Origin: a virus
Virus record (IMG/VR): IMGVR_UViG_3300042907_000878
Location: 27,283 to 91,282 of that record
Strand: one strand, 5' to 3'
Length of the DNA stretch: 64,000 bases
Shown here: piece after piece, positions 21,942 through 58,587 of the stretch
Layout: the number at the start of each line of letters is the position of its first letter
Numbering within the stretch: the first letter of the stretch is position 1
Notes under the pieces: generated by a model
The model's database searches: none
The model's input: only the letters and a program-made list of their open reading frames with translations
What the model was told of the DNA's origin: nothing
Translations under genes and position numbers: made by a program

Positions 21942-23534
21942 TTATATCTGAGTCACAATTTTAACAATAAAAGAAAGATCATTTTCCTTTTGTTTGATCT
22001 CTCCATATAATAGTACCGTATTGCCTTCAAAAAGCAACTTCTTGTATCGAGAAAATTCTTCAGAAAAAACCGTAATAGAATCAAGTTCACCTGAGCTATC
22101 TTCGGCAATTACAAATGCCATAAATTCGCCCTCATGCTGACCTCTTTTAAGTTTATATTCTCTAACTTGATTTATCTTCACTGCTAATTTGGCATCTTGC
22201 ATTTTTTTAACTTCACCATTAGCAATTTCTTTGCATGTGACATTTACATCATCCAAAGCAAGGTTGTCTGACTGTGAACAAGTCAAAGAACATCCCATAA
22301 GCTTCTGTTCAATATCTGCAATCCACACATAATCATCCTCAAGTGAATAAGGTGGATCTTGCAAAGCTTGATAGATATCTAACACAGAAGTAATCCTGCG
22401 AGAATTAATCTTATCGTTGTTGTTAATCATGAGATTAACTAAATCAATAAATGGAGAATTAGACATTCTGGAGCTTTTCCAATGAGATATGATCCACCCT
22501 TGCTCTTTGATAGTCAGCTTATTCCAAATATCAAATTCAAAGACCATTCTATTCCTGTTTAGCTTATTGTTCTTTCCCGTTAAGCCACCAACACTAATAA
22601 TAGAAATAAATGCATTCTTCTTGATCTCATTACCAATAAGAAATAAGCACTCCAACCAGTTAAACTCTTTAATTGATTTACCAGTGATATCCTCAGCTTC
22701 TTGCACAACTCTAGCTAGTGTTTCTTGCTCACCCTCTCCAACATTCTTGACATCGCTATATCCAAAGTATATGACGTTCTTAGCTCTATCCATTGTAAAG
22801 CGACGATAGAAGAAGTCAAGTCTAGGAGGAAGAACTTCAATTCCTTGAAGTTTAGCGTCCATAATCAACTCCTTAATCTCTCGCTGCTTATCTGGTTTAC
22901 TAGATGCATTATTTAGATATACAGTATAGAACTTAATTGGATCGTGTGTTTTACAATAAGCTGAAGCAAATGAATTGATAGCATATGCAACAGCGTGAGA
23001 TTTATTAAATGAATAGCGAGCAGATGCCGCAATCCATTCAAAAATCTTAGCTGCTGACACGTCATCTACTAATCCTTTAGTCTTAGACCCATTGATAAAC
23101 TTCTCTTCAACTTCTTTCATAAGTGCCGCATCTTTTTTACCCATAGCTTTTCTTAGTGAGTCAGCTTCTTCGGGTGTAAATCCAGCAATTTCTGTGGCAA
23201 TACGCATAGCTTGCTCTTGATAAACGATAATTCCATAAGTTTTACCCAGCACTGTTTCCAATGCTGGGTGTAAATATTTGGTTTCGTCAATCTTAGCTTT
23301 GCGATCTGTGTAGTGCTTGGTCATAGATTTGCCGTCTAATTCGGCCTCTAACGTACCGGGGCGAATAATGGATACCAAGTCAGCTAACTCGTCAATAGAG
23401 CGAGGCTGCGCCCTTTTTGCCCAACTGGAACCCAATCTGGACTCCAATTGAAAAACTCCCTTGGTTCTTCCGCTGCAAATCAGATCCCAAGTCGCTTCGT
23501 CGTCAAAATTTTTGATATCTTCAATATGAACCAT
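21942..23534 (-). CDS. DNA polymerase III alpha (DnaE), C-terminal half as separate gene, 530 aa
   Basis: Starts at ATG 23534 after an AGAGGAAC ribosome-binding site. It begins with the DnaE segment TKGVFQLESRLG, continues with ADLVSIIRPGTLEAEL and IIVYQEQAMRIATEIAGFTPEEAD, then SFNKSHAVAYA, the fingers of family C polymerases, and ends in an OB-fold (FMAFVIAEDSSGELDSITVF). The PHP, palm motifs and all three catalytic Asp lie in the other gene (24464-25966). The two proteins (500 + 530 aa) must assemble to give one polymerase. No intein-like ends are seen. Catalyses phage DNA synthesis. Confidence 0.88.
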   Translation of the reverse strand: MVHIEDIKNFDDEATWDLICSGRTKGVFQLESRLGSSWAKRAQPRSIDELADLVSIIRPGTLEAELDGKSMTKHYTDRKAKIDETKYLHPALETVLGKTYGIIVYQEQAMRIATEIAGFTPEEADSLRKAMGKKDAALMKEVEEKFINGSKTKGLVDDVSAAKIFEWIAASARYSFNKSHAVAYAINSFASAYCKTHDPIKFYTVYLNNASSKPDKQREIKELIMDAKLQGIEVLPPRLDFFYRRFTMDRAKNVIYFGYSDVKNVGEGEQETLARVVQEAEDITGKSIKEFNWLECLFLIGNEIKKNAFISIISVGGLTGKNNKLNRNRMVFEFDIWNKLTIKEQGWIISHWKSSRMSNSPFIDLVNLMINNNDKINSRRITSVLDIYQALQDPPYSLEDDYVWIADIEQKLMGCSLTCSQSDNLALDDVNVTCKEIANGEVKKMQDAKLAVKINQVREYKLKRGQHEGEFMAFVIAEDSSGELDSITVFSEEFSRYKKLLFEGNTVLLYGEIKQKENDLSFIVKIVTQI

Positions 23535-24463: not shown

Positions 24464-25966
24464 TTAATCCTTCTCTGTAATCTGCATAATTTTATCTAGT
24501 AAGTTAATCCCAAGCACATCAAATTTAGTCAAACCAACCTTATCCAAGTCATGCATTTCAAATGCGACTAATCTATGACCATTCTTATCTGTGATAAGAG
24601 GTGCGTCATTGATTAGATCTTCATTAGAAATAATCACTCCTGCCGGATGTTTTCCTTGAGATTTATAAGTTCCTTCTATTCTTATAGCAAGAGAGAAAAG
24701 ATCTGACAACTCACCAGACAAATTGCCCTCCTTATCAATTCTACACCACTTTTCAAGTTTCTTTGGATCATTTTCAAGAGTCCATCGAATAACTGATTTG
24801 ATATCCATTTCTTCCAATTCATCTGAGATGCTAGCTTCTTGTGGTAAACTCTCAGTGATCTCATTTAACTCACTAAAAGATAAGTCCCCATAAACTCTAG
24901 CAACATCCTTGACTGCTGATCGACCTTGCAGACGCCCGAATGTAATCATCTGGTAAACTCTTTCATTGCCATACTTATTCTTGATATAGTCAATAATTTC
25001 ATCGCGGTGAACAGATGGAACATCCATATCAATATCGGGTAAAGAGATATTATCTTTAGTAAATCGGCCAGCGTTTAAAAATCTAGAGAATAGTAAATCG
25101 TATTTCAAGGGATCAATATCAATAATCCCAAGTAAATATGACACTAAACATCCACCAGCACTTCCACGTCCCGGTCCCGGTAGCCACTCATTCTTTCTTA
25201 CGAAGTTAATAATGTCTTGCACAATTAAAAAGTATCCAGACAGTTCAAATCCATGAATAACAGACAACTCGTACTTAATACGATCAGTATATTCCTTCTT
25301 CTTATCATCTTTTAAATGCATAAGTTTTGCTCGCCAACCATTTCTACATAACTGTGTTAGATAATCATTCTCAGACATATCTGCACAATCTACGCGAGGT
25401 AGTTTAGGCTTAGAAAGAATGCTATACTGTTGTAATTCAGAGTATAGTTGTTTAGTTCCAAAGTATTGCTTTTCGCTAGGTATAATCCTATGAACTGGAT
25501 GAAAGAAGTAATGATCAGACTCGAAGAACTTTTTATATTCTCCCATATCCACATCTTTAGCTCTCTTGAGTGTAGTTTTAAAGTTAAGACATAATACCAT
25601 CCTATGAAGAATTGCGTCATTTTGTTCAGCATAATAAACCGGCATAATTGCTAGTTGATCTTCTGTATAAAATTGCAAGTCTTCTTTGTCGTATTCTATC
25701 TTTTCTTTAGATGCTAACTTAATTAAAGCTCTATATCCTTTTAGAGATTTAGCAATATAATACCCATTATCGGCTTGCATTCCAAGAATGGGTACGATCC
25801 CAGCTTTATTCATGGCATTGAAGAAATCAACAACACCACTAATAGTTTCAATATCTGCAATTAAGCAATGTGTATAGCCTAATTCTTTACATTTTTTAGC
25901 GGCTTCATCGGGCTTGATGAAACCTTTCAATAATGAATAGTGTGTTGTTATTACTGGCAATATCAT
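24464..25966 (-). CDS. DNA polymerase III alpha (DnaE), N-terminal half with PHP and palm, 500 aa
   Basis: N-terminal PHP-like domain (VITTHYSLLKGFIKP... GIVPILGMQ), in which the usual D-H-G metal motif reads ADIETISG, so its metal site looks degenerate. The polymerase core follows: GPGRGSAGGCLVSYLL (about residue 268), LPDIDMDVPS (about 309-318, the two palm Asp) and KVGLTKFDVLGINLL (near 482, the third catalytic Asp). The gene ends only about 15 residues after that Asp, whereas DnaE normally continues for some 600 residues; those are encoded at 21942-23534. The start overlaps the upstream nuclease stop. Confidence 0.9.
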   Translation of the reverse strand: MILPVITTHYSLLKGFIKPDEAAKKCKELGYTHCLIADIETISGVVDFFNAMNKAGIVPILGMQADNGYYIAKSLKGYRALIKLASKEKIEYDKEDLQFYTEDQLAIMPVYYAEQNDAILHRMVLCLNFKTTLKRAKDVDMGEYKKFFESDHYFFHPVHRIIPSEKQYFGTKQLYSELQQYSILSKPKLPRVDCADMSENDYLTQLCRNGWRAKLMHLKDDKKKEYTDRIKYELSVIHGFELSGYFLIVQDIINFVRKNEWLPGPGRGSAGGCLVSYLLGIIDIDPLKYDLLFSRFLNAGRFTKDNISLPDIDMDVPSVHRDEIIDYIKNKYGNERVYQMITFGRLQGRSAVKDVARVYGDLSFSELNEITESLPQEASISDELEEMDIKSVIRWTLENDPKKLEKWCRIDKEGNLSGELSDLFSLAIRIEGTYKSQGKHPAGVIISNEDLINDAPLITDKNGHRLVAFEMHDLDKVGLTKFDVLGINLLDKIMQITEKD

Positions 25967-45183: not shown

Positions 45184-45578
45184 GGATTCACCTGAATATA
45201 TTGTACTTGGGGTTGTACTTGAGGCTGAGTTGTCTGAACTGGCGGCTCTTCTTTTGGTTTACATTTACATACGCCGCCATCTTTTGAACATTGACATTTG
45301 AGCTTATTGCCGTCTGCCTGAACTATTTCGCCAGTCCCATTGCATTTACATGCGATTTCGGGGGCTGGAGGAGCTGGCTTTGGCACATTTTCCTTTTTAA
45401 TATTTTTCTTTTCTGTAGTATCTAAAATACTATTAACTCTCTCAACTTCTTTTTTTAGATCTGATTGAATGTCTCTAGATCCATATGCTTGAGATTGTTT
45501 ATCTGCTACATTATATTCGCTATAACTATAGCCAATAATTAGTCCAATCCCAAGAGCTACCACACTTTTTAAATTCAT
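45180..45578 (-). CDS. Membrane-anchored Cys-rich protein, 132 aa
   Basis: N-terminal membrane helix (LKSVVALGIGLIIGYSYSE), a Lys/Glu helix, a Pro-rich stretch (PKPAPPAPE), then IACKCNGTGEIV...KCQCSKDG...CKCKPKEE: six or more Cys in CxC and a DnaJ-like CxGTG arrangement, and a Gln/Pro-rich tail (QPQVQPQVQYIQ). Likely anchored in the inner membrane with a disulfide- or metal-bearing periplasmic domain. ATG 45578 overlaps the protease stop (ATGA), so the two are translationally coupled. Confidence 0.55.
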   Translation of the reverse strand: MNLKSVVALGIGLIIGYSYSEYNVADKQSQAYGSRDIQSDLKKEVERVNSILDTTEKKNIKKENVPKPAPPAPEIACKCNGTGEIVQADGNKLKCQCSKDGGVCKCKPKEEPPVQTTQPQVQPQVQYIQVNP

Positions 45579-46513
45579 GCGAAAATCTCCTTCACTCTTG
45601 TCCAATCCATCTTGCGTTTAAAGCCATTGAAGTTGCTATAGGCAAATGTTGCTCCAGCACCGATCATGCCCTCGGCAACCTTTTGTCTAACCCAGAAACT
45701 TCCATCTGGTTGTTCATACCACTTAGGACCACTATTCCAAAGACCCCAGCTATTTTGAACTAGGAATAGCATTTCATTAAATCTCTCGTAAGTGTCATCA
45801 CATGCAATTAGTGTCATTGCGTGCGCCCAACTACCTTGAGGTTCAGCTATTCCATTCTTATCTCTGTGAGAAGAGAATCCATAGTTAGAGCAAACAGATA
45901 AAGCATATCCATTAGCCAATAAGTCTCTAGCTTGCTCAACGCTATTTACAGTTGTTACTGTAGTGATTTTATGCTCTGCACATTCTTTGATAACTGGTTC
46001 TGGAATGCCTCTGCCGCCCCAGTTCATTCCTATTTTAGCATTGTACGTGGATAAGTCAATGCCGAGTTTTTCATATTTTTGACGGAGTAAGAATCCACCC
46101 GTCACACTCACAAATCTTGCGGCTTGTGAACAGTGCATTCCTTGGCCGCTAGACCCCCTAGACCCGTAGATTGGTTCAGTAGCACCTCTAGCAACAAAAG
46201 ACTCTTTCTCTTTACCATAGAGAATCTCATAAGCTCTAGTGATGTCCACAGCATTACGTGTTGCATGGCTAACGCAGTCGCCAGTAGTTTGTGATTCATC
46301 TCCTCCAAAGGAAGGAAAGAAATATTGAATTGCTTTGTATGGCAAAGATAAAACACCTTTTCCTGTGCCATACAATAGTTGATCGCCAACATCTCCAAAT
46401 AGTGGATGCGGTAATTCATCCATAAGTTTTAACATATCTACTGGATCACATACCGCGCCTTGCAATCCATTATTGTATTGTTCTAAAAGTTCTTCTGGAC
46501 TATTAAATTCCAT
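45575..46513 (-). CDS. Papain-like (C1) cysteine protease, 312 aa
   Basis: Catalytic triad in C1 order: Q75 and C80 in SQTTGDCVSHA, H231 in GSWAHAMTLIAC, N254 in LVQNSWGLW followed by the typical S-W-G. No signal peptide is visible. This family cleaves peptide bonds; no peptidoglycan-specific motif is apparent. It lies immediately before a run of five small membrane proteins including a holin-like one, so it may be the lytic enzyme, an envelope-processing enzyme or a prohead protease. The capsid genes that would favour the last option are not in the window. Confidence 0.8.
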   Translation of the reverse strand: MEFNSPEELLEQYNNGLQGAVCDPVDMLKLMDELPHPLFGDVGDQLLYGTGKGVLSLPYKAIQYFFPSFGGDESQTTGDCVSHATRNAVDITRAYEILYGKEKESFVARGATEPIYGSRGSSGQGMHCSQAARFVSVTGGFLLRQKYEKLGIDLSTYNAKIGMNWGGRGIPEPVIKECAEHKITTVTTVNSVEQARDLLANGYALSVCSNYGFSSHRDKNGIAEPQGSWAHAMTLIACDDTYERFNEMLFLVQNSWGLWNSGPKWYEQPDGSFWVRQKVAEGMIGAGATFAYSNFNGFKRKMDWTRVKEIFA

Positions 46514-47555
46514 TTAAGATCTCCCTTGCCGTATTTTCCCAAGAGAATTTTATAGCAGTTTCAATACCTGCTAAGTTTAGTTCTAGTTCACTATCTTGTT
46601 TTAATCTATGAGTTTCTCTCATATGATTTATAATTTGATCTTCCTGCCTTTTGCCAAGTTCAGCCCATTCGCCTTGACCATGAAACCAAATTCCATCTTG
46701 AGCCGATACTAATTTATCTGTTTCTACGATATAAGAGTTATTTCTATTCGTGAATTCCGTATGACCAGAGTAATCAGTTGTAATCACATGTTTTCCACAT
46801 GAAAGAAGTTCTAATAATTCTAGATTCCAACCTTCAGCCCGAACTGGAAAAACTCCAACATCAACTTGTCTCATAATATTATACACATCGCGATGATATT
46901 TTTGCCTTGGAATGAATCTAATTTTATCAGCAATGCGAGAACCCTTATAATAATTGATCCAATCGTTATTTTTTTCGCCCAAGAAAGGATTTTCGCACAT
47001 CATCCAAAGTTCTACGTTATCGTCTTTGTTAAAAGCCTTGTCGAAGCACTGTCTAATAATATCATGACCTTTGCGAATTTCCCACTTACCACAATTAAAG
47101 AAAATAGTGGGCTTTCTTCTTACATTATTATTTTCATTAAAGATTGATCTATCAATACCCAATGGTATAACTTTTGGGGTTGTGCCAAGCTCGTCTTCAA
47201 CAATATTTTTAGCCCACTCAGAGCATACTACAAGTTGATGACAAGATTTCATACTCCTTTTTTCTTCTGGAGTGAATTTATTTAATTCGAAGATTGGAAA
47301 TCCAACTTTCTCTCCTCTGCCTACAGATTCGTGTAGTCCATTTTGATGCCAAATTTTAAGACATGGTTGAGACCATTTTAGGTTCTCGTCTTTGTTTCTC
47401 CAGTCAAACTGGGCTAATTCTTCATATAGTTCTGGCTCAGGCTGGCCGATTGGAAAAATTGTTAAATTATCTCCAAGTTTTTCAGCTAATTGTTTTGCTA
47501 TATTAAATCCAACTTGGCCATATCCTAGACTGTTAATTGGAGCTTGTAGAAACAT
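46503..47555 (-). CDS. Glycosyltransferase, GT4-like, 350 aa
   Basis: N-terminal half opens INSLGYGQVGFNIAKQLAE; the central KVIPLGIDRSIFN is the classic hinge motif of GT4 enzymes. The C-terminal half has IFFNCGKWEIRKGHDII and RAEGWNLELLELLSCGKHVITT, the donor-binding Glu motif. Transfers a sugar in the cytoplasm to an unknown acceptor. Overlaps the protease gene by 11 bases. Confidence 0.8.
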   Translation of the reverse strand: MFLQAPINSLGYGQVGFNIAKQLAEKLGDNLTIFPIGQPEPELYEELAQFDWRNKDENLKWSQPCLKIWHQNGLHESVGRGEKVGFPIFELNKFTPEEKRSMKSCHQLVVCSEWAKNIVEDELGTTPKVIPLGIDRSIFNENNNVRRKPTIFFNCGKWEIRKGHDIIRQCFDKAFNKDDNVELWMMCENPFLGEKNNDWINYYKGSRIADKIRFIPRQKYHRDVYNIMRQVDVGVFPVRAEGWNLELLELLSCGKHVITTDYSGHTEFTNRNNSYIVETDKLVSAQDGIWFHGQGEWAELGKRQEDQIINHMRETHRLKQDSELELNLAGIETAIKFSWENTAREILNGI

Positions 47556-47642: not shown

Positions 47643-48002
47643 TTAAGTTTCCCATAGTTTAATTATATTATCTGGAAAATATAGATCTTTAATAGCATTG
47701 TTCAAATCTTCGATTGTTTGTCCCGCAAGACCTGTTCCTAGTGCAGTTAATAGAAATACAAGATCATCATTTCTCTGTGCGTATTTCATAAGGACTTCCA
47801 GTTGAATTCTTATAAAGTCCCATCCTATAAAACCTGTTCTTAGATCTTTAGTTATTATAGCATAAGTTTGCCCCTGACGCCCACTATTCTTTCCATATTC
47901 TGCACCCCAAACCATTGCAGCTTTAGCTGCCCCAGCTCCATGTCTACCTTCAGTATTACTACCAAATACAAATATCTCATTCTGCAATAGAAATTCTACC
48001 AT
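47643..48002 (-). CDS. Macro-domain-like protein, 119 aa
   Basis: ATG 48002 has GGAGAAAATA upstream. The N-terminal part EIFVFGSNTEGRHGAGAAKAAMVWGA is a macro-domain-type ADP-ribose binding loop ('F-G-S-N-x-x-G-x-H-G-A-G-A-A'), followed by GQTYAIITKD and TALGTGLAGQTIEDL. Similar small proteins occur in many phages. It probably binds or hydrolyses ADP-ribose-type molecules (possibly removing host ADP-ribosylation or recycling NAD products). Phage role unproven. Lies between the pilin terminator and a membrane microprotein. Confidence 0.65.
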   Translation of the reverse strand: MVEFLLQNEIFVFGSNTEGRHGAGAAKAAMVWGAEYGKNSGRQGQTYAIITKDLRTGFIGWDFIRIQLEVLMKYAQRNDDLVFLLTALGTGLAGQTIEDLNNAIKDLYFPDNIIKLWET

Positions 48003-48012
48003 TATTTTCTCC

Positions 48013-48041
48013 AAAAAAAGAGTCGCCCAAAAGGACGACTC
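48013..48041 (-). terminator. Intrinsic terminator after the pilin-like gene
   Basis: Minus strand: GAGTCGTCC pairs with GGGCGACTC (9 bp, one G-U) around TTTT, followed by seven T. It ends the pilin-like transcript 23 bases after its stop. Confidence 0.92.
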
Positions 48042-48063: not shown

Positions 48064-49188
48064 TCAATAAGAATCGGCTGAGATAACTTCGTTGCCAGCT
48101 CGCGTAATCAAAGCTCTGACAATCGCTGCATTTGTTGTATCTTTAACAAATCTCACAGATCCATCTGTCATTGCCATGTTAGCTCCACCGGGATGCCATG
48201 AGAAGATCTCATTATTTGGGCCGCAGTCATGAATACCCCAGTCATTAGCACCACAGCTTGGCTTGCCAAATCCACCAGTTTTATTGTTGTTGATAACATT
48301 TGAAACGCCAGCAGCATTGTCAGGATCGCCCCATCTCCATGAGCGACGAGCGCCCTGAACGTAAGGAGCGGGAGCATTCAAGTCAGGAGCGTAATCGGTT
48401 GTTGGAGAAGCATAGTTACCAACACCTTGCATCTTTGGGCTGCGACCAGTGTCTTCATAAAACATAGCAGTGTTAGATGTGCCATCTGTCGTTGCACCAA
48501 TCGTTGCTCCACCCTTATTAATATCGACTGTTCCATCCAAAACTTTTGCTGGGTCGATTTGATAAATCTTACTAGAGGAGCATACTGTACATCCATACGC
48601 TTTATAAGCAGATGTGCCATAAGCATTGCCAGTCAATGATCCGGGAGCTGGTGTTGGCCCAACATAACCCGCTTGCCACTTTGTAGTGCCATCGGGCATG
48701 ATCTCAGTATAAGGAGCTGTTGCATAGTCAATACAACCAAATCCAATACTATCGCGTCCATTCTGTCGATCACTTTCAAGTGCGTTTGTTGGACACAAGA
48801 ATGCGTTAATCACTGTTGCACTTGCAGTTACATTACCAGAAAAATTATATGGTAGTTGCAAGTTAAGCTGATTATAAACATTACCCTGTTCAATACTCCC
48901 AAGGATCATTGTGAATGCACTATGATAATCCTGCGTCTTATAAGTTGTGCTGCCGACTGTTACATTATGCTCTCCAGAGCGTGGAAATGTGCCTTGGGCG
49001 TTTTCAAAATTATGCGCGGCCAAAGCTAACTGTTTGAGGTTGTTCGTGCATTGCGCTCGCCTAGCTGCTTCTCTAGCTGATTGTACTGCTGGAAGTAAGA
49101 GTGAGATAAGCACTGCGATAATGGCAATAACCACAAGCAGTTCAATAAGGGTAAAACCACGACGATTAGCATTTTGTGTTTTGATCAT
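48064..49188 (-). CDS. DUF1559-family type IV pilin-like protein, planctomycete type, 374 aa
   Basis: Type III signal: [15 protein letters not shown] with prepilin-peptidase cleavage expected after G11, F12 at +1 and E16 at +5, then the hydrophobic helix and [16 protein letters not shown], a hallmark of DUF1559 proteins. The C-terminus has [18 protein letters not shown], the H-x-G-G-A/D-G-S-V-x-F signature of the family. DUF1559 is abundant in Planctomycetes and rare elsewhere. Base composition is richer in G+C than the flanking genes, consistent with transfer from a host. It has its own promoter, leader hairpin and terminator. No prepilin peptidase is in the window, so host processing is required. 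Confidence 0.93.
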
Positions 49189-49218
49189 TTTTATTTTTCT
49201 CTCAAGTGTTTAAAGAAG

Positions 49219-49241
49219 AAGGACACCAACGTGATGTCCTT
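49219..49241 (-). promoter_or_regulatory. 5'-leader hairpin of the pilin-like mRNA
   Basis: Minus strand: AAGGACATCA pairs with TGGTGTCCTT (10 bp, one G-U) around a three-base loop. It lies about 5 bases after the predicted transcription start, so the transcript would begin with this hairpin. Such 5' stem-loops commonly protect mRNA from decay. The sequence after it is pyrimidine-rich but not a proper U-run, so a terminator is less likely. Confidence 0.6.
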
Positions 49242-49252
49242 CGTACTCAATT

Positions 49253-49281
49253 ATTATAACCGGCTTCAACCCCATTGTCAA
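49253..49281 (-). promoter_or_regulatory. Perfect-consensus sigma70 promoter of the pilin-like gene
   Basis: Minus strand: TTGACA at 49281-49276, 17-base spacer, TATAAT at 49258-49253. Both hexamers and the spacing match the consensus exactly. It lies between the glycosyltransferase stop at 49291 and the pilin-like ATG at 49188. Confidence 0.92.
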
Positions 49282-49290
49282 GTTAAGATT

Positions 49291-50016
49291 TCATGAAGAT
49301 TTTTGATTTTTGTTGAACAAGAATAGATCTTCGATCTCATTATAGTTCATTCCTTCAAATTCTTCAATGGATCTGCTCACTGGAACATCCGCTCTGCCTC
49401 TCATGACCTTTTCCATATATTCATGTTTTGTTTTACAAACATAATGATTTAACTGCACTACGTCATCAGTTCCATTGTGATTGAACGGTCCAGTTCCAAA
49501 ATTTCCATTTGTATCTTTCCATTGTACATTTGCATGATGCGGATTTATCATTGAAATGTTAGGTTCAAGCTTTATAATGGATTTAATATGTTCATTTACT
49601 TTTTTTTGTCTCATTTTAAATCTATTAATTAAACTATTATTGTTTGGATCATAATCTTCTATAAAATTATTTCCAAAAAATATCCAATTAATGGCTAATG
49701 AGTGAGTATCAAATCCATATTCATATATAAAATCTTTAATATTTGAATGTTTTTTCAATACTAAAAATTCATCAATGTCAAAAAAAGCGGCCCAATCATA
49801 AGATAGGCCGTAGTTTTGTATAAAATGATTATATGCATACCCTTGCTTGCATTCCCCATCGCATGGTATTTTTAACATTGAGCTGTCATTTATATTTGAT
49901 CTATAATTATTCTCGTATAAATATATTTGATCAAATCCTAATTTTTTATAATGATCAATCCATTCTTTTAAATATTTGTCTTCATCTTTTGCGATTGCAA
50001 CTAACGCCAATTTCAT
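49291..50016 (-). CDS. GT92/GT2-like glycosyltransferase, 241 aa
   Basis: KLALVAIAKDEDKYLKEWIDHYKKLGFDQIYLYENN is the standard opening of the DUF23/GT92-like family (quoted in parts: VAIAKDEDKYLKEW, GFDQIYLYENN). DWAAFFDIDEFLVL supplies the DxD metal motif. C-terminal PHHANVQW and QLNHYVCKTKHEYMEKVMRG match the acceptor half. Probably transfers a hexose onto a surface glycan. Only a two-base gap separates it from the gene upstream. Confidence 0.7.
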   Translation of the reverse strand: MKLALVAIAKDEDKYLKEWIDHYKKLGFDQIYLYENNYRSNINDSSMLKIPCDGECKQGYAYNHFIQNYGLSYDWAAFFDIDEFLVLKKHSNIKDFIYEYGFDTHSLAINWIFFGNNFIEDYDPNNNSLINRFKMRQKKVNEHIKSIIKLEPNISMINPHHANVQWKDTNGNFGTGPFNHNGTDDVVQLNHYVCKTKHEYMEKVMRGRADVPVSRSIEEFEGMNYNEIEDLFLFNKNQKSS

Positions 50017-50017
50017 A

Positions 50018-50290
50018 TTATTTTTGAGCCTCTTTTAGAGCTTTTGGATCTGGTCGATCAGGATCGCCCATTTTTGCTGGCTTGTAATTTTTACCCATCT
50101 TTTCTTTTTTCTTTTGAATATTTTCCCAAAGCCCCGGTTTATCCCCAGCTTTTAGAATTGAATTTTTTTCGTCTGGGTCTGGTTCGCCTTCTCTGCGACC
50201 CGCAGTCGGTGGATCGTATTTTGGATAATTAACTGGTTTTTTTTCAGCTTCTGCGTATTCATTCATTGCTTCTAAATAATTCTTTTTCAT
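50018..50290 (-). CDS. Small charged, apparently disordered protein, 90 aa
   Basis: Lys/Glu/Pro/Asp-rich throughout (AGRREGEPDPDEKNS, KMGDPDRPDPKALKEAQ). No hydrophobic core and no family recognised. AGGAGAA precedes its ATG. May be a scaffold or disordered linker protein. Confidence 0.45.
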   Translation of the reverse strand: MKKNYLEAMNEYAEAEKKPVNYPKYDPPTAGRREGEPDPDEKNSILKAGDKPGLWENIQKKKEKMGKNYKPAKMGDPDRPDPKALKEAQK

Positions 50291-50298
50291 ATCTTCTC

Positions 50299-50937
50299 CT
50301 AGTTATGTATAAAAAGGTAATTGTTGATCTTTATGATGTCATTTCTATCTACTGACTTTCCGATTTCTTCTACTAATTTTCCATCGGCCTCGAAGCAGTC
50401 ATCGCTTAAATCGAAATCAAAATTTTTTATAATATTTTTATTAAAAAATAAACAACCTAAGTCAACACGTGATTTAACAAAATGCGTTTCTAGTATTCCC
50501 CATCTATTATGACTTGATATCATATTTGAAAATACAATCTTTTTGTTGTATTCTTGTGCTGTTGCTATTAATGATTCAAATGCAACTGGAACATAATAAT
50601 TATCATCATTTGTATATATAAGCCAATCAAAATTTTCATCAATAAAAGCATATTTTTTTCTATGCGGATATCCAAATTTACCAAGTTTATTTTCTGTTTG
50701 AATAATTTTAATTCTATTATCTAATTCAATAAAATTTAATAAACTCGTTTTCTCTTCGCAGTCATTTATTGGACCGTCATGAACGATTATTAATTCAAAA
50801 TTTTCATACGTCTGAGCCAATACGCTACTTATAAATGATTTGCAATACTTATATCTTTTTTTATTATCATTAAGATACGAAGCAGCCACAATTCTTATTT
50901 TTTCTTTTCTTATGCTCAAGCTTTCCCAATATCTCAT
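50299..50937 (-). CDS. GT2-type glycosyltransferase, 212 aa
   Basis: FISSVLAQTYENFELIIVHDGP is the GT2 'S-V-L-x-Q-T-Y-x-x-x-E-I-I-V-x-D-G' motif, and DWLIYTNDDNYYVP gives the metal-binding D-D. Transfers a sugar from a nucleotide donor. Overlaps the DUF5672 gene by four bases. Confidence 0.75.
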   Translation of the reverse strand: MRYWESLSIRKEKIRIVAASYLNDNKKRYKYCKSFISSVLAQTYENFELIIVHDGPINDCEEKTSLLNFIELDNRIKIIQTENKLGKFGYPHRKKYAFIDENFDWLIYTNDDNYYVPVAFESLIATAQEYNKKIVFSNMISSHNRWGILETHFVKSRVDLGCLFFNKNIIKNFDFDLSDDCFEADGKLVEEIGKSVDRNDIIKINNYLFIHN

Positions 50938-51596
50938 TTATTATTCCTGCTAATTAAAAAATTTCCGTGAAAGCCAAATGACTTATCTTTCATTTCTGGC
51001 ACGGGACGCTCTATAGAAAAATTTGCGGCAGTTTGTGGATCTGCAAATTTTACACCTCTGTCAATAAATTCCTTATAATATATATTACACGATAAGAAGT
51101 CTTCATTGACCGATATATCGTATACGCTCCTATTTAAACTGGTGTTAAAATTAAAATCTTTAAAAATACTATACGATGTTTTTAGAAATTTCTTTGACTT
51201 TAAGCAGAACCCCCCGTTTCCAACTCTATTTTTATAACCCCATTCAATAGGCCAAGGAGCGCCGATGTAATCAGATTCTAAAAATTTATCTGTCCAACAC
51301 TCTGGATTAATTATATATCCATCATGCTGGATTGTCAAGCAGAAATCTGTGGGAATATATTTATTTAAATCTACCAAACAGAATTTTGAATATTCAGCTT
51401 TATTTTTTATAATTGGTATTCTAAATATTTCTAGATTAACACTAGAAAGATTTTTAAACCTATTGATATTTATATCTTCTATGTCATCTGTAAAAAAATA
51501 ATATTTATCAAAATATATATTTTCTATTGATTTATCTAGAGCAATTAAAGCTTCTATTTTATTTTTTGTATCTATGCAACAAATAGATATAGTCAT
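50934..51596 (-). CDS. DUF5672-like glycan-modifying protein, 220 aa
   Basis: ATG 51596 has GGAG six bases upstream. LTIQHDGYIINPECW, YIGAPWP, VGNGGFCLKSKKFL, GVKFADPQTAANFS and FGFHGNF match the DUF5672 family, which is found among glycosyltransferases and has a GT-A-like fold; catalytic activity not firmly established. A member of the second sugar cluster. Confidence 0.7.
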   Translation of the reverse strand: MTISICCIDTKNKIEALIALDKSIENIYFDKYYFFTDDIEDININRFKNLSSVNLEIFRIPIIKNKAEYSKFCLVDLNKYIPTDFCLTIQHDGYIINPECWTDKFLESDYIGAPWPIEWGYKNRVGNGGFCLKSKKFLKTSYSIFKDFNFNTSLNRSVYDISVNEDFLSCNIYYKEFIDRGVKFADPQTAANFSIERPVPEMKDKSFGFHGNFLISRNNK

Positions 51597-51597
51597 T

Positions 51598-52329
51598 TTA
51601 TTCTCCAATTAATATATTATCGTAATATTTTGTTTCATTTTTATAACTATCTCCATCTACATATCCAATCTCGCATACAATATTTTTCATCAATGCGTAA
51701 GCTATTGCCATGGGAGCCGAGAGATTTCCACAGAATAAACTGCATGAATTTATAATTTCAAATAAATTTTGTATATTATCTATATATAATGACTGTACTA
51801 AATTTTTATGTGGAAAATTTACATATTGATTTACGTCTGTATATATAAAAAATGAATTTTCTTTTCCATGTTCATGTATATATTTTATATATAAATCATT
51901 TGCTGAATGTCTTCTATAGTCTAAGCTTCTGTTAATTATTAGAGAATTATTATATTTTTTAATATTTTTGATGTTTTTTATAATTTGAAAATTTCTTATA
52001 TTGAAATTTGCGCTTTGTAAATATATCGATGATAACTTTTCAGTCCAACACAATTGGGGATTTTCATTTCTCCAAAATGATAGATTAAAATTTATGTTTT
52101 GATTATTGTATATTTCAAATGTGTTTATATATTCTTGTTTAGATATAATATCATGCAATTCATTAAAAGTATTCTCTAGACCAAATGAAAAGTGATCTCC
52201 AATTTCAGATATATATAAATTAGTTTTAATGTTGTATACATTATATATAATAGCAGGTATATATAGTTGATGTATAAAATCTCCGAGCTTTCCCCCGGAG
52301 ATCATGTTTAAGGTTTTATTACTTTCCAT
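51598..52329 (-). CDS. GT-B-like glycosyltransferase-type protein, 243 aa
   Basis: MISGGKLGDFIHQLYIPAIIYN near the start resembles the 'G-x-L-G-D-x-I/L' of heptosyltransferase-type GT-B enzymes. NSCSLFCGNLSAPMAIAYALM near the end resembles their donor-binding 'S-G-N-x-x-x-x-x-A-A-A' helix. ATG 52329 lies inside the DUF4254-like gene end by 11 bases. Extremely A+T- and Asn/Ile-rich. Activity inferred. Confidence 0.5.
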   Translation of the reverse strand: MESNKTLNMISGGKLGDFIHQLYIPAIIYNVYNIKTNLYISEIGDHFSFGLENTFNELHDIISKQEYINTFEIYNNQNINFNLSFWRNENPQLCWTEKLSSIYLQSANFNIRNFQIIKNIKNIKKYNNSLIINRSLDYRRHSANDLYIKYIHEHGKENSFFIYTDVNQYVNFPHKNLVQSLYIDNIQNLFEIINSCSLFCGNLSAPMAIAYALMKNIVCEIGYVDGDSYKNETKYYDNILIGE

Positions 52330-52570
52330 ACATTTTTGTTGAACCTTGGTTATAAAGCTTTTGAGGTTTGCCAGATATGACAAGCTGATTGATTTCTTGA
52401 TCAATCTCTTGAATTAAGTCGTTCCTTTGTTGGTTTGCCACATTGGTTACTTTTGTCGCCTTTGCAATTTCACCATCTGTTGCTACTGGATTTCTTTTAA
52501 TGTCTTCACACATCCAGATACGAATATTTACTACAGTCAATTTATCAATTAAATTTCCTATTGTTTCCAT
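52319..52570 (-). CDS. DUF4254-like small helical protein, 83 aa
   Basis: TIGNLIDKLTVVNIRIWMCEDIKR and TNVANQQRNDLIQEIDQEI match the pattern of DUF4254-type helical proteins that accompany lipopolysaccharide or glycosyltransferase genes. Function unknown; by position a partner of the neighbouring GT-B-like enzymes. One-base overlap with the gene upstream. Confidence 0.6.
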   Translation of the reverse strand: METIGNLIDKLTVVNIRIWMCEDIKRNPVATDGEIAKATKVTNVANQQRNDLIQEIDQEINQLVISGKPQKLYNQGSTKMYGK

Positions 52571-53505
52571 TATATAGTCCTGTCTAATATTGATTTAGTT
52601 TGATTTTTTATATTTTCATATGAATTTATATATGTGGTATTAATTTGTTCCTGATATTTTTCAAAATTATGGTATATTTCAGTTAGTGTAGTTTCTGGAT
52701 ATATTGAAAGCTCTGGAGCAAAAGATCGAAACATATTTGATCCTGTAATTAGTACTGGTTTTTGAGCTGATACTAAGTAATCTAGAGATGATGATATGCC
52801 AACATCTTTTTCCGCTTCATAGAATAAGCAGTTTATATCATTTTCATTTAGTTTATTAATTACTTCATACTCAGATAAAAAATTAGTTGTTATGTTTAAT
52901 TTGATTCCGGGCTTAGTGATTGCATTGTAACACGCTCTAATTACATTTCCAGTTTCATTTATTCCATCAAAATATGCTTTGGGCATATGGAAGTTAATGA
53001 TGGCTTTGTCAAAACAATCATTGACATGACGCACTATTCTATCAAAAAATTTATGACCAAGAGCAAAGCCAAAACTTCCAATCGTTGGAATAGCATTTTT
53101 TTGTGTGCTGTTGTTATAATAGGCAGAAAGAGGTCTATCAGTTTTAAAGCAACAATTATTTTCTAAAGAAAATTTATCTAGTATTATATAGTAGTTAAAA
53201 ATATTATCATTTCTAAATGTTTCTAAATTATTTTTACTAAATAAGTGAGGAACGCAGAATTTTATACATTTATATTTATTAATTTCTTCATTTACCCAAG
53301 GTAAAGTCATATGCATATAATTGAATATAACTGCATCTGGATTGTATTCTTGACATATATTAAAAAATGAGGATATATCATTTAATTCTGCATATATCAT
53401 ATTATAATTTTCAATTTCTTGTATTGATATAAAATGGCGCAGACCTAGATCATAAACTCCACAAGCTTTTGTAATTCCATGATTTATATATAATACTGTT
53501 TTCAT
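52570..53505 (-). CDS. GT-B-like protein, 311 aa, paralogue of next gene
   Basis: Shares with the 299-aa protein upstream the segments IPTIGSFGFALGHK, ITKPGIKLNITTNF and SAQKPVLITGSNMFR, spaced alike, so the two are tandem paralogues. The layout (N-terminal alpha/beta half, then a half with a 'T-I-G-S-F-G-F' strand) fits a GT-B fold. Catalytic residues not assigned. Four-base overlap with its paralogue. Confidence 0.5.
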   Translation of the reverse strand: MKTVLYINHGITKACGVYDLGLRHFISIQEIENYNMIYAELNDISSFFNICQEYNPDAVIFNYMHMTLPWVNEEINKYKCIKFCVPHLFSKNNLETFRNDNIFNYYIILDKFSLENNCCFKTDRPLSAYYNNSTQKNAIPTIGSFGFALGHKFFDRIVRHVNDCFDKAIINFHMPKAYFDGINETGNVIRACYNAITKPGIKLNITTNFLSEYEVINKLNENDINCLFYEAEKDVGISSSLDYLVSAQKPVLITGSNMFRSFAPELSIYPETTLTEIYHNFEKYQEQINTTYINSYENIKNQTKSILDRTI

Positions 53506-54401
53506 TGGATAATACTTTCAAACTTTTTACAAAAATTGATAGGAGACCAATCCTCATTCATATCAAGAACTCCTTTGTGATTTTGCTGTATAGCGTCCTT
53601 TAGTGATATGTCTGGGTATGGCTTTATATATTTAAGTAAATGTCTAAATGTTGGATTTTTAGTTGTCAGGATTGGTCTTTTTGCTGATATGGCCTGATCT
53701 GTTACCGCTGCTAATCCATGCATATTTCTGTAATATGGAAAATAATTAATTGTATTTCTAGAACACCATTTAACAAGTTGCTCTTTATCCATATAGTTAT
53801 GTGTTAACTCGATCCTAATTCCCGGCTTTGTAATGTGTGATTTTATATCGGATATAATTTTCTGCGTCCTTTGCCATGAATCAGTCACATATGTAGCAAA
53901 AGGAATATTTATTTTTACTACTGCATTGTCAAAATTCTGTTGAGCCAGTTCTATTATTTCGGTCCAATTCTTGCCATCGGTTGCAAAGCCAAAACTTCCT
54001 ATAATTGGATACCCGCGATCAATATAAGTATCCGTCTCATAATTTTCAATCGGCCTTGGGAACCCATATATATTATCGTTATCTGGGATTGTTGGATCAA
54101 TCACTATGTAGCCATCGAATATTTTTGGGGTTAATGGCATTATATCATCGCCTTGTCCGACTTCAAGAACAATGCAATATTTTTTTCCTTTAAAATTAGA
54201 TAAGATGTCAGTTGTCATCCAGTTGTTTACTGCGACATGCTGATTAAAAACTGCAAAGTCATAATCCAAATGTAAAGAATTTTCTTCTGTATAATCTAGC
54301 ATGTATTTTATTGATTGATTAAGCGCGTTGTAGCACATTAATCCCGACTCATAAATGCTGCACTGCGCTTTTTTTGAATTGTAAAAAATTCCTCTTATCA
54401 T
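53502..54401 (-). CDS. GT-B-like protein, 299 aa, paralogue of previous gene
   Basis: ATG 54401 follows GAGAGATAAA; the upstream in-frame codon is TTG. Contains YPIIGSFGFATDGKN, ITKPGIRIELTHNYM and SAKRPILTTKNPTFRH, each matching the neighbouring 311-aa protein. The pair likely arose by tandem duplication and may act on successive residues of one glycan. Confidence 0.5.
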   Translation of the reverse strand: MIRGIFYNSKKAQCSIYESGLMCYNALNQSIKYMLDYTEENSLHLDYDFAVFNQHVAVNNWMTTDILSNFKGKKYCIVLEVGQGDDIMPLTPKIFDGYIVIDPTIPDNDNIYGFPRPIENYETDTYIDRGYPIIGSFGFATDGKNWTEIIELAQQNFDNAVVKINIPFATYVTDSWQRTQKIISDIKSHITKPGIRIELTHNYMDKEQLVKWCSRNTINYFPYYRNMHGLAAVTDQAISAKRPILTTKNPTFRHLLKYIKPYPDISLKDAIQQNHKGVLDMNEDWSPINFCKKFESIIQ

Positions 54402-54402
54402 T

Positions 54403-55173
54403 TTATCTCTCAATCATATTTTGTCTTATTGGTTGGTGAATTAAATCTGTTAATGCGGTATGAATTATTCCCATTTTTGTCATCATTTCATATACTAAAG
54501 TTTCGCTACAAAATATTTTATCTACATTATTTACATCATTTACAATTCTTTGAATATAATTGAATGCACTCGCATATATATTCATATTTTCACTTGATGA
54601 AAATCCAAACCAATCTTCTATCATCCTAGGAGGAAGGGTGTGAATTTTTTTGTCTGTCCATAAAATATTTTTGTCATAATTGGCGCATATAATTGATCTA
54701 CTTAGTGTTGAATCAAATCTAGCTCTAATGACATAATCATATTGTATATCATTTTCAAGTCTATATTCTTCTTTTAACATGTTACATTTCATTATGCTTA
54801 GCCATGAGGAGTAAATCATATTTACAAAATAATCTCTAGAGTAATGCCTAGCATTATCTGTTGTTAATATATGATCCAGCGGTATAACTGAATCCTTTAT
54901 GACTTTCTGATTCTCAAAAAGATATTTTTTTGGTTGATATAATTTTGTGATTATTTTATCTACATGTGGAGGATATTTACTATTTTGGCTTGAGTAATTC
55001 CATCCATTTGCCCACTCTGCGTAGTTTACAAACTGCTGTCCAATTAACGATTCATCATACCAAGAATGCACAAAAACATCTGCATTATTAGGATCAATCA
55101 GTGTATTTTTAATATTTTGATATGCATATTCTACAAATCTAGGTTGTCCTGAAATACAAAGCGCGACTTTCAT
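54403..55173 (-). CDS. GT-A-like surface-glycan transferase, 256 aa
   Basis: ATG 55173 overlaps the upstream stop (ATGA). KVALCISGQPRFVEYAYQNI and ADVFVHSWYDES form a typical opening of a family of bacterial/phage glycan transferases. YDYVIRARFDSTLS gives the likely DxD-equivalent site, and RMIEDWFGFSSSENM the substrate pocket. Family name not certain. Confidence 0.6.
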   Translation of the reverse strand: MKVALCISGQPRFVEYAYQNIKNTLIDPNNADVFVHSWYDESLIGQQFVNYAEWANGWNYSSQNSKYPPHVDKIITKLYQPKKYLFENQKVIKDSVIPLDHILTTDNARHYSRDYFVNMIYSSWLSIMKCNMLKEEYRLENDIQYDYVIRARFDSTLSRSIICANYDKNILWTDKKIHTLPPRMIEDWFGFSSSENMNIYASAFNYIQRIVNDVNNVDKIFCSETLVYEMMTKMGIIHTALTDLIHQPIRQNMIER

Positions 55174-55985
55174 TTGTGGTATCGACTCCAATATTTATAA
55201 CACTTCAAAAGATCTTCTTCATTTTTTACCTGAGTGGCTTTTATAATTGTAGACCACGCTTCAAAGTTTTCCACTTCATCCGGCGTTCCAAAAACAGAAA
55301 CAAATGGTGTATCATAGTATCCAACTTTTAGCCCGTCTTTAATTAATAGATTATAAGTTAAAGTTACGTAATATTCTCCGTTATGATTAATATTTTGCTG
55401 GACCGTTTCGTTGAAATACTTTTTTACATATTTACCTTTGCTAAAATAGTAAACGCCTGTAGAAGCATGTTCACTCATTGGATTGTTTGTATAACACTCT
55501 TTTTCTTTTATTTCTGACACAATTCCATCCGACTCTTTTAGGAATGCCATTTTTGTACTAGCAAGTGTGTGCGGGTGGAATCCAGTGTGAGTTAAAATAC
55601 ATCCATCCAAATTATTGTCTTTGACATGCCTATTAAAATCCTCTCTATCCCATAAATGTGGATTATCGCAATATGATACTATAACTTCTTCATTGTCATT
55701 TATAAACTCATAAGCCTGTTGAACAGTATATATTGGTCCAAATTTGTGCTGCTTCATAGAAACTATTGATGCATCAGGTCTTAAGGAATTTAATATTGAC
55801 CTCATGTCTGTTTCTTCAAGATGTCTGTCGTTACATATAAAAACTATCTCATCACCTTCATTAAACATATCTAGGATATATTCAATAATCCTTTTGCTAT
55901 TAACTTTAATAAGAGGTTTTGGATCTTTATATCCACGCTCTACAAATCTATTTCCTGATCCAGCCATTGGAATAATAATTTTCAT
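55170..55985 (-). CDS. Sugar nucleotidyltransferase, 271 aa
   Basis: N-terminal KIIIPMAGSGNRFVERGYKDPKPLIKV: the G-x-G-x-R...K-P-L/M-I signature of NTP transferases (quoted as MAGSGNRF and DPKPLIKV). VIVSYCDNPHLW holds the metal Asp. Together with the kinase-aldolase fusion directly upstream (four-base overlap), it likely makes an activated nucleotide-sugar or nucleotide-polyol for the glycosyltransferases downstream. Confidence 0.78.
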   Translation of the reverse strand: MKIIIPMAGSGNRFVERGYKDPKPLIKVNSKRIIEYILDMFNEGDEIVFICNDRHLEETDMRSILNSLRPDASIVSMKQHKFGPIYTVQQAYEFINDNEEVIVSYCDNPHLWDREDFNRHVKDNNLDGCILTHTGFHPHTLASTKMAFLKESDGIVSEIKEKECYTNNPMSEHASTGVYYFSKGKYVKKYFNETVQQNINHNGEYYVTLTYNLLIKDGLKVGYYDTPFVSVFGTPDEVENFEAWSTIIKATQVKNEEDLLKCYKYWSRYHK

Positions 55986-57382
55986 TTGGCTACCTTTCTC
56001 ATTTTTTCCGCTGTCATATTATTTAATTTATTGATTTCTTCATCACTTAGAAATTTTGGAGTTAGATTGCAAGCGGTCATCATTTGAAATATATTTTTAT
56101 TTATATCTTCCATTTCTTCCTTTAAAACTGCCGCATCTGGGAATAATGGTTTTATTCCAGTATTTATTTCTGAACTGATTAATGGTTGGCTATTTTTGAT
56201 TAGCCATTCTTTACATTTTTCATTGACTAATTCTGTTAATAAAAATGCTCGTTCTGATGTTTCTGATCCAATAATTAAACCATGATTTTCTAAAAATATA
56301 ATTTCTCTGCCTATATTTATTTTATCAATTAACTCAAATCCCGGAGTGGTATACTCTACAAAATTAAATTGAGAATCTTTAAATAAATCAGATATTATAT
56401 CTTTACTTTCTTGACTGCACAGTATTGCATTTAAATGTATTGGATGTGTGTGACATACTATTTTAGATTTTATTTTTAAGTGAAATCCAGTTTCCATTGA
56501 CGGATTATTTTTGCCACCTCTTTTAAGATTTGATATGTATGTCATATATTCATTTTCATTCCTGAATATTGGTAATATTTCTGGTATATTACAAACACAA
56601 TATCCATTTGATAAGCTAATATCTGACATTCTAGATCCTGAAGATTTAATAATTAATCCATTGTTGGTTTTTCTGGATATATTTCCACCTTTATCTTGTA
56701 CGATTGCTGGATCTAATGATATCTTTCGGCATAATTCAATAAAATCTATAGTAGACTCATAAAATATATCTAGTTTTTGAATAATTTCTTGAGCTGATTC
56801 GCTTAAGTTATTATTTATATAACTAGGAACAACTTTTCCATTTATCTTTTTAAAAGTGATAATTATATCAGCATTATTTTTTTGAGGCTCTATGTATTTT
56901 AGTTCATCTTCTTTTCTAATATTTATATTTTTTAAAACTTGTTCTTTTGTATATCCTCTTTCGTGAGTGTCTCTTGTTATTTTCCACTCTTTCTTTAATT
57001 CTTCATCTGTTTCAACAAAAATATTTAGATTAGATATATTAGCGACTGGTTCATAAAGAGCGTGTAGCCCCACGTATATTATATACTGTTTAGGATATAT
57101 TTCTATAGGCTCATCAAATTTACCAGTAGTATGATTATATAAAGATCTTTGTATTGAAGATCCTTTCATTAAATCTCTTATATGAATATAGCCTATTTCT
57201 AAGTTATTTGAATCTGGATTAAGATGTGTTTTATTTTTCCAGTGATGACTATTTCTTTTCCACTTATGAAGATCATCCCCGCTTAGATACAGGGATTGAT
57301 CTTCACCTAAAATATATTGTAATAATTTAGCTACAGTGGTTTTTCCAACTCCAGAGCTGCCAGATATGCATATTAAATTCAT
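55982..57382 (-). CDS. Uridine kinase/PRK-like kinase fused to class II aldolase, 466 aa
   Basis: Residues 1-180: P-loop kinase with ISGSSGVGKTT (Walker A, 6-16), SGDDLHKW, YNHTTGKFDEP and YIIYVGLHALYEP, the order seen in uridine kinase/phosphoribulokinase proteins. Residues about 205-420: class II aldolase/adducin domain with DKGGNISRK, IIKSSGSRMSD, CHTHPIHLNAIL (metal His-x-His) and LENHGLII (third metal His). The fusion suggests successive phosphorylation and aldol cleavage/condensation (or dehydration) of a small sugar. Linked by four-base overlaps to the nucleotidyltransferase and the C-methyltransferase. Confidence 0.8.
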   Translation of the reverse strand: MNLICISGSSGVGKTTVAKLLQYILGEDQSLYLSGDDLHKWKRNSHHWKNKTHLNPDSNNLEIGYIHIRDLMKGSSIQRSLYNHTTGKFDEPIEIYPKQYIIYVGLHALYEPVANISNLNIFVETDEELKKEWKITRDTHERGYTKEQVLKNINIRKEDELKYIEPQKNNADIIITFKKINGKVVPSYINNNLSESAQEIIQKLDIFYESTIDFIELCRKISLDPAIVQDKGGNISRKTNNGLIIKSSGSRMSDISLSNGYCVCNIPEILPIFRNENEYMTYISNLKRGGKNNPSMETGFHLKIKSKIVCHTHPIHLNAILCSQESKDIISDLFKDSQFNFVEYTTPGFELIDKINIGREIIFLENHGLIIGSETSERAFLLTELVNEKCKEWLIKNSQPLISSEINTGIKPLFPDAAVLKEEMEDINKNIFQMMTACNLTPKFLSDEEINKLNNMTAEKMRKVAK

Positions 57383-58587
57383 GATTCTATTATTTCAAAT
57401 TTTGGACATGGGACAATGAATTTACCTCCGCACTGTAAAAAGTTCTGTTCTCTTTGAATGAACTCATTAATGAAATGCCAAGGTAGAACAAGCATATAAT
57501 CTGGAGGATTTTGTCTCATTTCTTCTTCCGAGATAATAGGAATATTTGTTCCTGCTGTATATAATCCAAATTTATACGGGCTACGCTCAACTAATTTTTG
57601 AACCAGTCTTGAATCAATACCAAAGTATTGAAGCAGCGTGTTGCCTTTAGTAGATGCCCCATAGCCATAAACTGTCTTTCCTTCAGCCCGTGCAGACTCA
57701 AGAAATTTAACGGTTTCATCTTTAAGATCATTAATTCTATTGAAAAAATGAATCCATGTATTTTGGTTATCTAATTCAAGTGTTTTTTCATATGCAAGTA
57801 AGGATTGTACATTAAAATCGTAGACATCTCTCTTTTGTTGATTTGCAAACTTTTTAACATCTGCAATATCTTTTACTGCATACACTCTAAAGCTTCCACC
57901 GTTAACATCGTTCAATTCGCAATTAAGAATCTTAAACCCATTTCTTTCGAAAATTTTCTTAATGTTGAATAGCGAGTAATAATACATATGCTCATGGCAG
58001 ATATTATCAAATGCTAATTGGTTAATCATCAGAGGAGTATAGGACATTTGCACGACCCATATTCCATTATCATCAAGTACATCGTACACATCTTTTACAA
58101 ACTTATCTGGATTTGGAACGTCATAAAACATTGCGATTGTAGTAACTACATCGGCTTTGAAATTTTCCGGTAGAACTTCTTTTGAAAAGTAATCTTGGAT
58201 AATTGTCGCATATTTACTAGATTCATTTTTAAAAGAGTCGTCTGCTGGATCAACACCATATTTTTTATAATTATTTGGAACTTGAGAAAGTAGAGTTCCA
58301 TCGTTACATGCAATATCCAGCCAAGTTTTTTCTCCTTGGTGATTTACAATGTGTGTGATATCGTCCACTATCTTTTTAAGCTCATTCTTCATTGTTTGAT
58401 TAGTGCCAGACCGATACCAATATTTCCCCCACATGGTATCGCATGGTGGCTGTTCCGATAACCTTACAGCTCCACTATCCTCTTCCAAGACAAGTTTTAG
58501 TTCATATTTTTCAATCGGGTTTTTTAGCTGATCCTCTGTTAAAAAATCAGAAACACATATCTTTCCTAAGCTAAATAATTCAATCAC
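57379..58587 (-). CDS. Sugar C-methyltransferase-like protein, 402 aa
   Basis: GTG start at 58587 preceded by GGAG. SAM motif I TWLDIACNDGTLLSQV near residue 90. NICHEHMYYYSLFN is the conserved H-E-H loop, and a C-terminal alpha/beta domain has VYGYGASTKGNTLLQYF, the layout of TylC3/NDP-hexose C-methyltransferases (two domains around the methyltransferase core). The usual N-terminal four-Cys zinc site is not complete. Probably adds a branch methyl to the NDP-sugar made by the neighbouring genes. Confidence 0.78.
   Translation of the reverse strand: MIELFSLGKICVSDFLTEDQLKNPIEKYELKLVLEEDSGAVRLSEQPPCDTMWGKYWYRSGTNQTMKNELKKIVDDITHIVNHQGEKTWLDIACNDGTLLSQVPNNYKKYGVDPADDSFKNESSKYATIIQDYFSKEVLPENFKADVVTTIAMFYDVPNPDKFVKDVYDVLDDNGIWVVQMSYTPLMINQLAFDNICHEHMYYYSLFNIKKIFERNGFKILNCELNDVNGGSFRVYAVKDIADVKKFANQQKRDVYDFNVQSLLAYEKTLELDNQNTWIHFFNRINDLKDETVKFLESARAEGKTVYGYGASTKGNTLLQYFGIDSRLVQKLVERSPYKFGLYTAGTNIPIISEEEMRQNPPDYMLVLPWHFINEFIQREQNFLQCGGKFIVPCPKFEIIES

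Follow-up and report, generated by a model that had tools for sequence, protein, structure and literature searches.

Why would a phage keep a gene for a pilin of the planctomycete kind? The window analysed here is a 64,000-nucleotide stretch of DNA (bases 27283-91282 of a 91,282-base IMG/VR virus record). A preliminary description, made from the sequence alone, read one of its minus-strand genes as a DUF1559 prepilin carried by a phage as a self-contained "moron." The features that bear on this question, in window positions, are as follows.

48064..49188, minus strand: coding sequence of the 374 amino acid DUF1559 prepilin (PF07596, TIGR04294 and TIGR02532 over cut-off; dN/dS 0.018-0.022 within clade A)
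49141..49164, minus strand: prepilin peptidase site and start of the polymerisation helix, RRGFTLIE, residues 9-16 (read from the sequence)
48142..48204, minus strand: H-X9-DG C-terminal signature, residues 329-349 (TIGR04294, 1.5e-10)
49253..49281, minus strand: perfect sigma70 promoter of early-phage type, TTGACA-N17-TATAAT (12 of 12 hexamer positions)
49218..49242, minus strand: hairpin at the 5' end of the mRNA leader (fold -17.8 kcal/mol, z = -3.4)
48020..48041, minus strand: intrinsic terminator after the pilin gene (other terminators stand instead in some relatives)
47643..48014, minus strand: downstream neighbour, phrog_2072, syntenic in the relatives covering the locus
46503..47555, minus strand: downstream group 1 glycosyltransferase (PF13692 and phrog_2170)
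49291..50016, minus strand: GT92/GT2-like glycosyltransferase (Pfam), last gene of a variable glycan island
50018..50290, minus strand: small conserved upstream ORF, directly adjoining the pilin promoter in L004, L009 and L010
61955..61982, minus strand: second perfect early-type promoter, TTGACA-N16-TATAAT, about 60 nt upstream of rIIB, found also in a 155-kb relative

The pilin gene and its phage setting

The HMM search bears out the family assignment. The product matches Pfam PF07596 (DUF1559) at 8.8e-43 (147.7 bits against a cut-off of 23.3) and the NCBIfam H-X9-DG profile TIGR04294 with 40.4 bits against a cut-off of 19; PF07963 (N_methyl; 3.2e-9) and TIGR02532 (7e-8) also score over their cut-offs. 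The N-terminus is that of a type IV prepilin, with a cleavage site and a glutamate at mature position 5, and the site is conserved in phage and host copies. The GspG equivalog profile TIGR01710 reaches 38.5 bits on the N-terminus, below its cut-off of 88.85. A PDB sequence search returns essentially N-terminal helix matches only (geopilin, GspG, PilA), and the AlphaFold model (pLDDT 47) is too weak for use.

Is the gene truly part of a phage genome? The contig codes for ribonucleotide reductase, a PolIII-type DNA polymerase in two genes, DnaB, primase, a UvsX/RecA-like recombinase, rIIA and rIIB. Orthologs of the pilin occur in 13 other viral contigs, one of them of 155 kb (IMGVR_UViG_3300034107_000314, with 15 tRNA genes), and the pilin-bearing relatives share the downstream genes. 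The preliminary description would have been undermined by a host chromosome on both sides of the contig or by absence of the gene from related phages. Neither is found: the pilin is syntenic in other phage contigs, including the 155-kb one, which excludes contamination and misassembly and makes the phage location genuine. No PF00589 integrase was detected in the window contig, the 155-kb relative or a 77-kb relative (records that are perhaps incomplete, searched for this integrase type), so the phage is apparently virulent.

Several neighbouring regions deserve mention. The two polymerase genes (window 24464-25966 and 21942-23534) are separated by an exonuclease-like gene, and this gap is the position of the pilin in some relatives. 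Adjoining the pilin, window 49291-58587 is an island of glycosyltransferases, a nucleotidyltransferase, a kinase/aldolase fusion and a C-methyltransferase, whose gene content differs strongly among relatives; its last gene (49291..50016) has no counterpart at the same spot in the relatives. This hypervariable island, bordering the pilin in group I (defined below), is likely another surface-modifying block. On the other side, window 45575-46513 encodes a conserved 312 amino acid protein, papain-like by eye (QTTGDCVSH...SWAHAM...NSWG), which gave no Pfam or PHROG match and has 61% relatives in distant phages (L127, L131).

Cassette, age and selection

Two phage clades carry the pilin at the same place, clade A with proteins 98-100% identical and clade B (L006, L007, L008 and L011) at 75%. 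Their comparison supports the promoter, 5' hairpin and terminator of the preliminary description, all of which we confirm. Across clade A neither the -35 nor the -10 hexamer changes, although several bases of the spacer do, and the terminator exists in different versions among relatives (GAGTCGTCC...GGGCGACTC; CCCCACTAGAAATAGTGGGG). The clade B cassette has the promoter TTGACT-17-TATAAT, a different 5' hairpin at the same place, and a terminator. The description as a single gene holds for the window phage and fails for clade B, where a gene for an HNH-type endonuclease (L011:6573-7331; phrog_3322, 1.3e-25) separates the leader from the pilin. This endonuclease might help the cassette to spread by homing.

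The cassette can also be lost. L077, a clade A relative, lacks the pilin gene and has the -35 box (AACTTGACA) with a terminator close by. Since the gene is present in clade B and in the other clade A phages, this state reads as a natural deletion, seen in one metagenomic contig. Together with the apparent movement of single pilin genes between related phages (see below), it agrees with the view of a self-contained unit. Of the usual marks of a moron, the locus thus shows its own promoter and terminator and, through this single contig, presence and absence between close relatives.

Does the promoter mark the gene as foreign? We considered and rejected this idea, as perfect promoters of this class crowd the presumed early region in the 155-kb relative. 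That genome has 26 perfect TTGACA-16/18-TATAAT promoters, mostly intergenic, 22 of which lie within 85-127 kb, where first-order Markov simulations predict 0.08. On the strength of these promoters, this segment (L147-L149) is likely the early region; it also holds most of the tRNA genes. The pilin promoter is among the few perfect ones outside it, and another precedes rIIB. A classic lysogenic moron gains no support from a promoter of the phage's own early type and from three contigs (perhaps incomplete) without a PF00589 integrase.

The third mark of a moron, foreign base composition, is missing. The pilin has a GC3 of 0.33, compared with a phage mean of 0.255 (sd 0.05) and 0.51-0.71 in the host orthologs. 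Its total GC of 44% results from its amino acid make-up, and the GC3, being near phage values, indicates that the gene has ameliorated to the phage. The proposed difference in base composition thus falls away, and so does a recent acquisition: GC3 is phage-like, and the gene sits at a common locus in two clades whose synonymous divergence is near saturation. Were there two captures, one for each clade? Clade B lies slightly nearer the hosts in the tree, but an AU test does not reject a monophyletic phage group (p = 0.21), and a single capture is the better fit to the common locus and promoter.

Within clade A, the pilin dN/dS (0.018-0.022) is the lowest among genes longer than 100 amino acids in an 11-kb stretch, in which ribonucleotide reductase has 0.036-0.039, other genes have up to 0.37, and only a 61 amino acid ORF falls below the pilin. 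This suggests that the whole protein matters. As synonymous divergence is also lower than in most neighbours, part of this constancy may come from recombination or codon bias. The pilin is an old phage resident under very strong purifying selection. A poison subunit with a degraded domain, another candidate that we considered, is not supported: all family signatures are intact and dN/dS is about 0.02.

Host donor and repeated capture

The closest cellular relatives of the pilin are orthologs at 77-79% in four planctomycete MAGs, which are all the sampled members of one genus. These four genomes contain 37-67 DUF1559 matches each, and the ortholog scores 658-678 bits against about 146 for the next best match in the same genomes. 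Among 45 genomes of the family, in which some members have more than 200 DUF1559 candidates, the next orthologs are at 57% and 42-47%; in a 392-genome sample of the phylum, with few candidates scored per genome, no further genome reaches an E-value of 1E-75. Orthology to one specific paralog among dozens, in a single genus, predicts the host, in line with the planctomycete host of the preliminary description. The host ortholog lies near ppk (Pfam) and, judged by eye, a gene for endonuclease IV, and is followed by a terminator in at least three of the four genomes. Three of the MAGs (L017-L019) are titled Candidatus Kuenenia stuttgartiensis and have dozens of DUF1559 genes; these titles seem to be mislabels.

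How often have phages acquired such genes? A broad DUF1559 alignment search yields about 50 further viral contigs, most of them AT-rich, with rIIA/rIIB, PolIII, UvsX, ThyX or UvdE commonly shared with the window phage. Terminases from five pilin-bearing genomes share 50-73% identity with one another, and among the best matches listed from 50,697 phage records none, cultured phages included, exceeds 27% identity to them. The lineage comprises over 560 stretches with a terminase, and the listed contigs are mostly fragments. Searches with three different phage pilins found no DUF1559 protein in cultured phages.

In a quick tree of 36 viral and 71 host proteins (SH-aLRT support only), the viral pilins fall into four groups. 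Group I, with the window phage, lies inside the ortholog group of the host genus, which answers the call of the preliminary description for a joint phylogeny. Group II (L159-L164) lies inside a different host ortholog group (47-50%; 294 bits versus 119), group III (L171/L172 and L190) is sister to the host protein L213, and group IV consists of 19 sequences, all of them viral. The starred branches require seven changes or more; because some of these involve doubtful contigs, we claim four acquisitions. The IMG/VR matches L186, L193, L205, L209, L210 and L211 (GC 0.42-0.68) are possibly host or prophage DNA and were not counted. Capture has been repeated, and judging from the sequences one uncultured lineage of large phages apparently took DUF1559 pilins at least four times.

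Within the lineage the pilin occupies at least six contexts: beside the counterpart of the 47643-48014 gene, in the exonuclease/PolIII-C gap, in a kinase-like gene/h506 gap, before rIIA, after rIIB, and near thyX/uvdE. In L167 (5983-7080) and L168 (6003-7101) it forms a 1.1-kb island, 92% identical at the DNA level, whereas the surrounding sequence otherwise differs; the two also have a thyX-like gene in common, in another position. Pilin genes thus appear to pass singly from phage to phage. In group II a perfect promoter stands 52-67 nt before the pilin start codon, and thyX and uvdE are no more than a few kb away; in the 155-kb relative these two genes map to 85-89 kb, inside the promoter-rich region. 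No perfect promoter was found upstream of group IV pilins.

Possible roles of the pilin

An intact pilin kept under strong selection points to an undescribed role at the surface of the infected cell. It is tempting to hypothesize that a virulent planctomycete phage domesticated one host DUF1559 pilin gene and uses it as follows. Host RNA polymerase would transcribe the gene from the early-type promoter, and the structured leader may protect the mRNA. Early expression would fit the promoter of the same type at the independently captured group II pilins and their closeness to thyX and uvdE, whereas the group IV pilins, which lack a perfect promoter, count against this reading. The host prepilin peptidase would then cut the prepilin; we propose the host enzyme because none was found in seven phage contigs, and one is present in the host genus. 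Given the intact processing site and signatures and the strong purifying selection, the processed pilin would enter a host type IV filament or pseudopilus, replacing the host ortholog or standing beside it. The changed or jammed filament may no longer serve as a receptor or entry point, so that superinfecting phages would be excluded, by analogy with T5 Llp. Exclusion proteins are expressed early by many phages, and T5 Llp is a precedent (PMC9586334). We hold tentatively to this reading, in which an early pilin joins and remodels the filament of the infected cell, with exclusion as its most likely effect. An exclusion factor need not be 98-100% conserved, and such constancy fits a transport or binding role as well.

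The chief rival is uptake, and the data do not decide between it and exclusion. DUF1559 filaments (crateriform, pili-like fibres) would capture macromolecules, and the phage, by an auxiliary metabolic gene, would keep or boost substrate uptake. The large repertoires of the host genomes and their family would suit a set of binding specificities, and the 77-79% likeness of phage and host orthologs fits a conserved task. An older paper terms the domain solute-binding (PMC2754498), and a role of pili-like fibres in polysaccharide uptake by planctomycetes has been proposed (PMC9028447). However, different phages took different paralogs, which fits no single substrate, and in the literature examined a binding function of DUF1559 is a proposal only. 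We regard uptake as somewhat unlikely.

Alternatively, the product might act as a pseudopilin that jams or redirects host type II secretion, sparing energy or blocking the export of defence proteins. The early-type promoter would suit such a role, as would the match of the N-terminus to GspG (TIGR01710, 1.1e-9, below cut-off), but jamming should not need a whole globular domain, which is under selection at a dN/dS of 0.02; we think this quite unlikely. Pilins commonly mediate adhesion, and the phage pilin could keep infected cells attached or in clumps, which would bring progeny into contact with new hosts. The glycosyltransferases next door could decorate pilins, yet Pfam recognises no adhesin-like domain in the protein and nothing speaks specifically for this idea, which we rate as improbable. 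Finally, DUF1559 pilin genes are very numerous in planctomycete genomes, but synteny in other phage contigs, phage-like GC3, purifying selection and repeated capture make host contamination, misassembly or a neutral passenger gene extremely improbable.

Returning to remodelling by an early pilin, at least four apparent captures and single-gene transfer argue for a repeated benefit. A possible, more speculative extension is a strategy of the whole lineage: different host DUF1559 paralogs, captured at least four times and passed between phages as one-gene cassettes, with perfect early-type promoters in two of the captures, would let a phage re-equip the infected cell with its own pilus subunit and so control further infection or uptake. 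Remodelling with exclusion would presuppose that DUF1559 proteins form pili and that a DUF1559 filament serves planctomycete phages as a receptor, both of them putative properties, and this weighs against it. In Planctopirus limnophila, DUF1559 forms the largest group of paralogs, with 68 copies, two of them essential (PMC10632474). Phages that repeatedly choose single members under strong selection offer a natural experiment for the function of this family, and the orthology predicts a specific host for a phage lineage that is not in culture.

The use by a phage was thought to be undescribed, and the literature searched agrees: papers on DUF1559 have nothing on phages in title or abstract, and we found no paper on planctomycete phages or on phage-borne pilins of the DUF1559 kind. 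Repeated DUF1559 capture by a lineage without close cultured members thus appears to be new within that literature. Phage pilins as such are known, since PHROGs has a pilin family in its moron category, phrog_3433. It resembles the window protein in having a pilin-like N-terminus in a phage gene, but the match is weak (2.5e-6, 41 residues) and limited to the N-terminal helix, and the profile, of 127 positions, does not share the DUF1559 domain. The planctomycete DUF1559 (PF07596)/H-X9-DG prepilins are far closer, with full-length homology, the prepilin site, the C-terminal signatures and 77-79% to one ortholog; in contrast to them, the window pilin is phage-borne, has phage-like GC3 and an early-phage promoter, and comes with its own regulatory cassette. 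T5 Llp, the superinfection exclusion lipoprotein, is likewise a single envelope-directed product of a lytic phage (PMC9586334), although the protein is unrelated and blocks FhuA, and exclusion by the window pilin would be an analogy only. Pseudomonas phage Tip, Aqs1 and Pf4 pVII (PMC11436027) are phage products that act on type IV filaments, as proposed for the window pilin. They inhibit the assembly ATPase or other pilus proteins, whereas the window phage supplies a pilin-like subunit, and the case would thus add a phage-supplied pilin to the known means by which phages alter type IV filaments.
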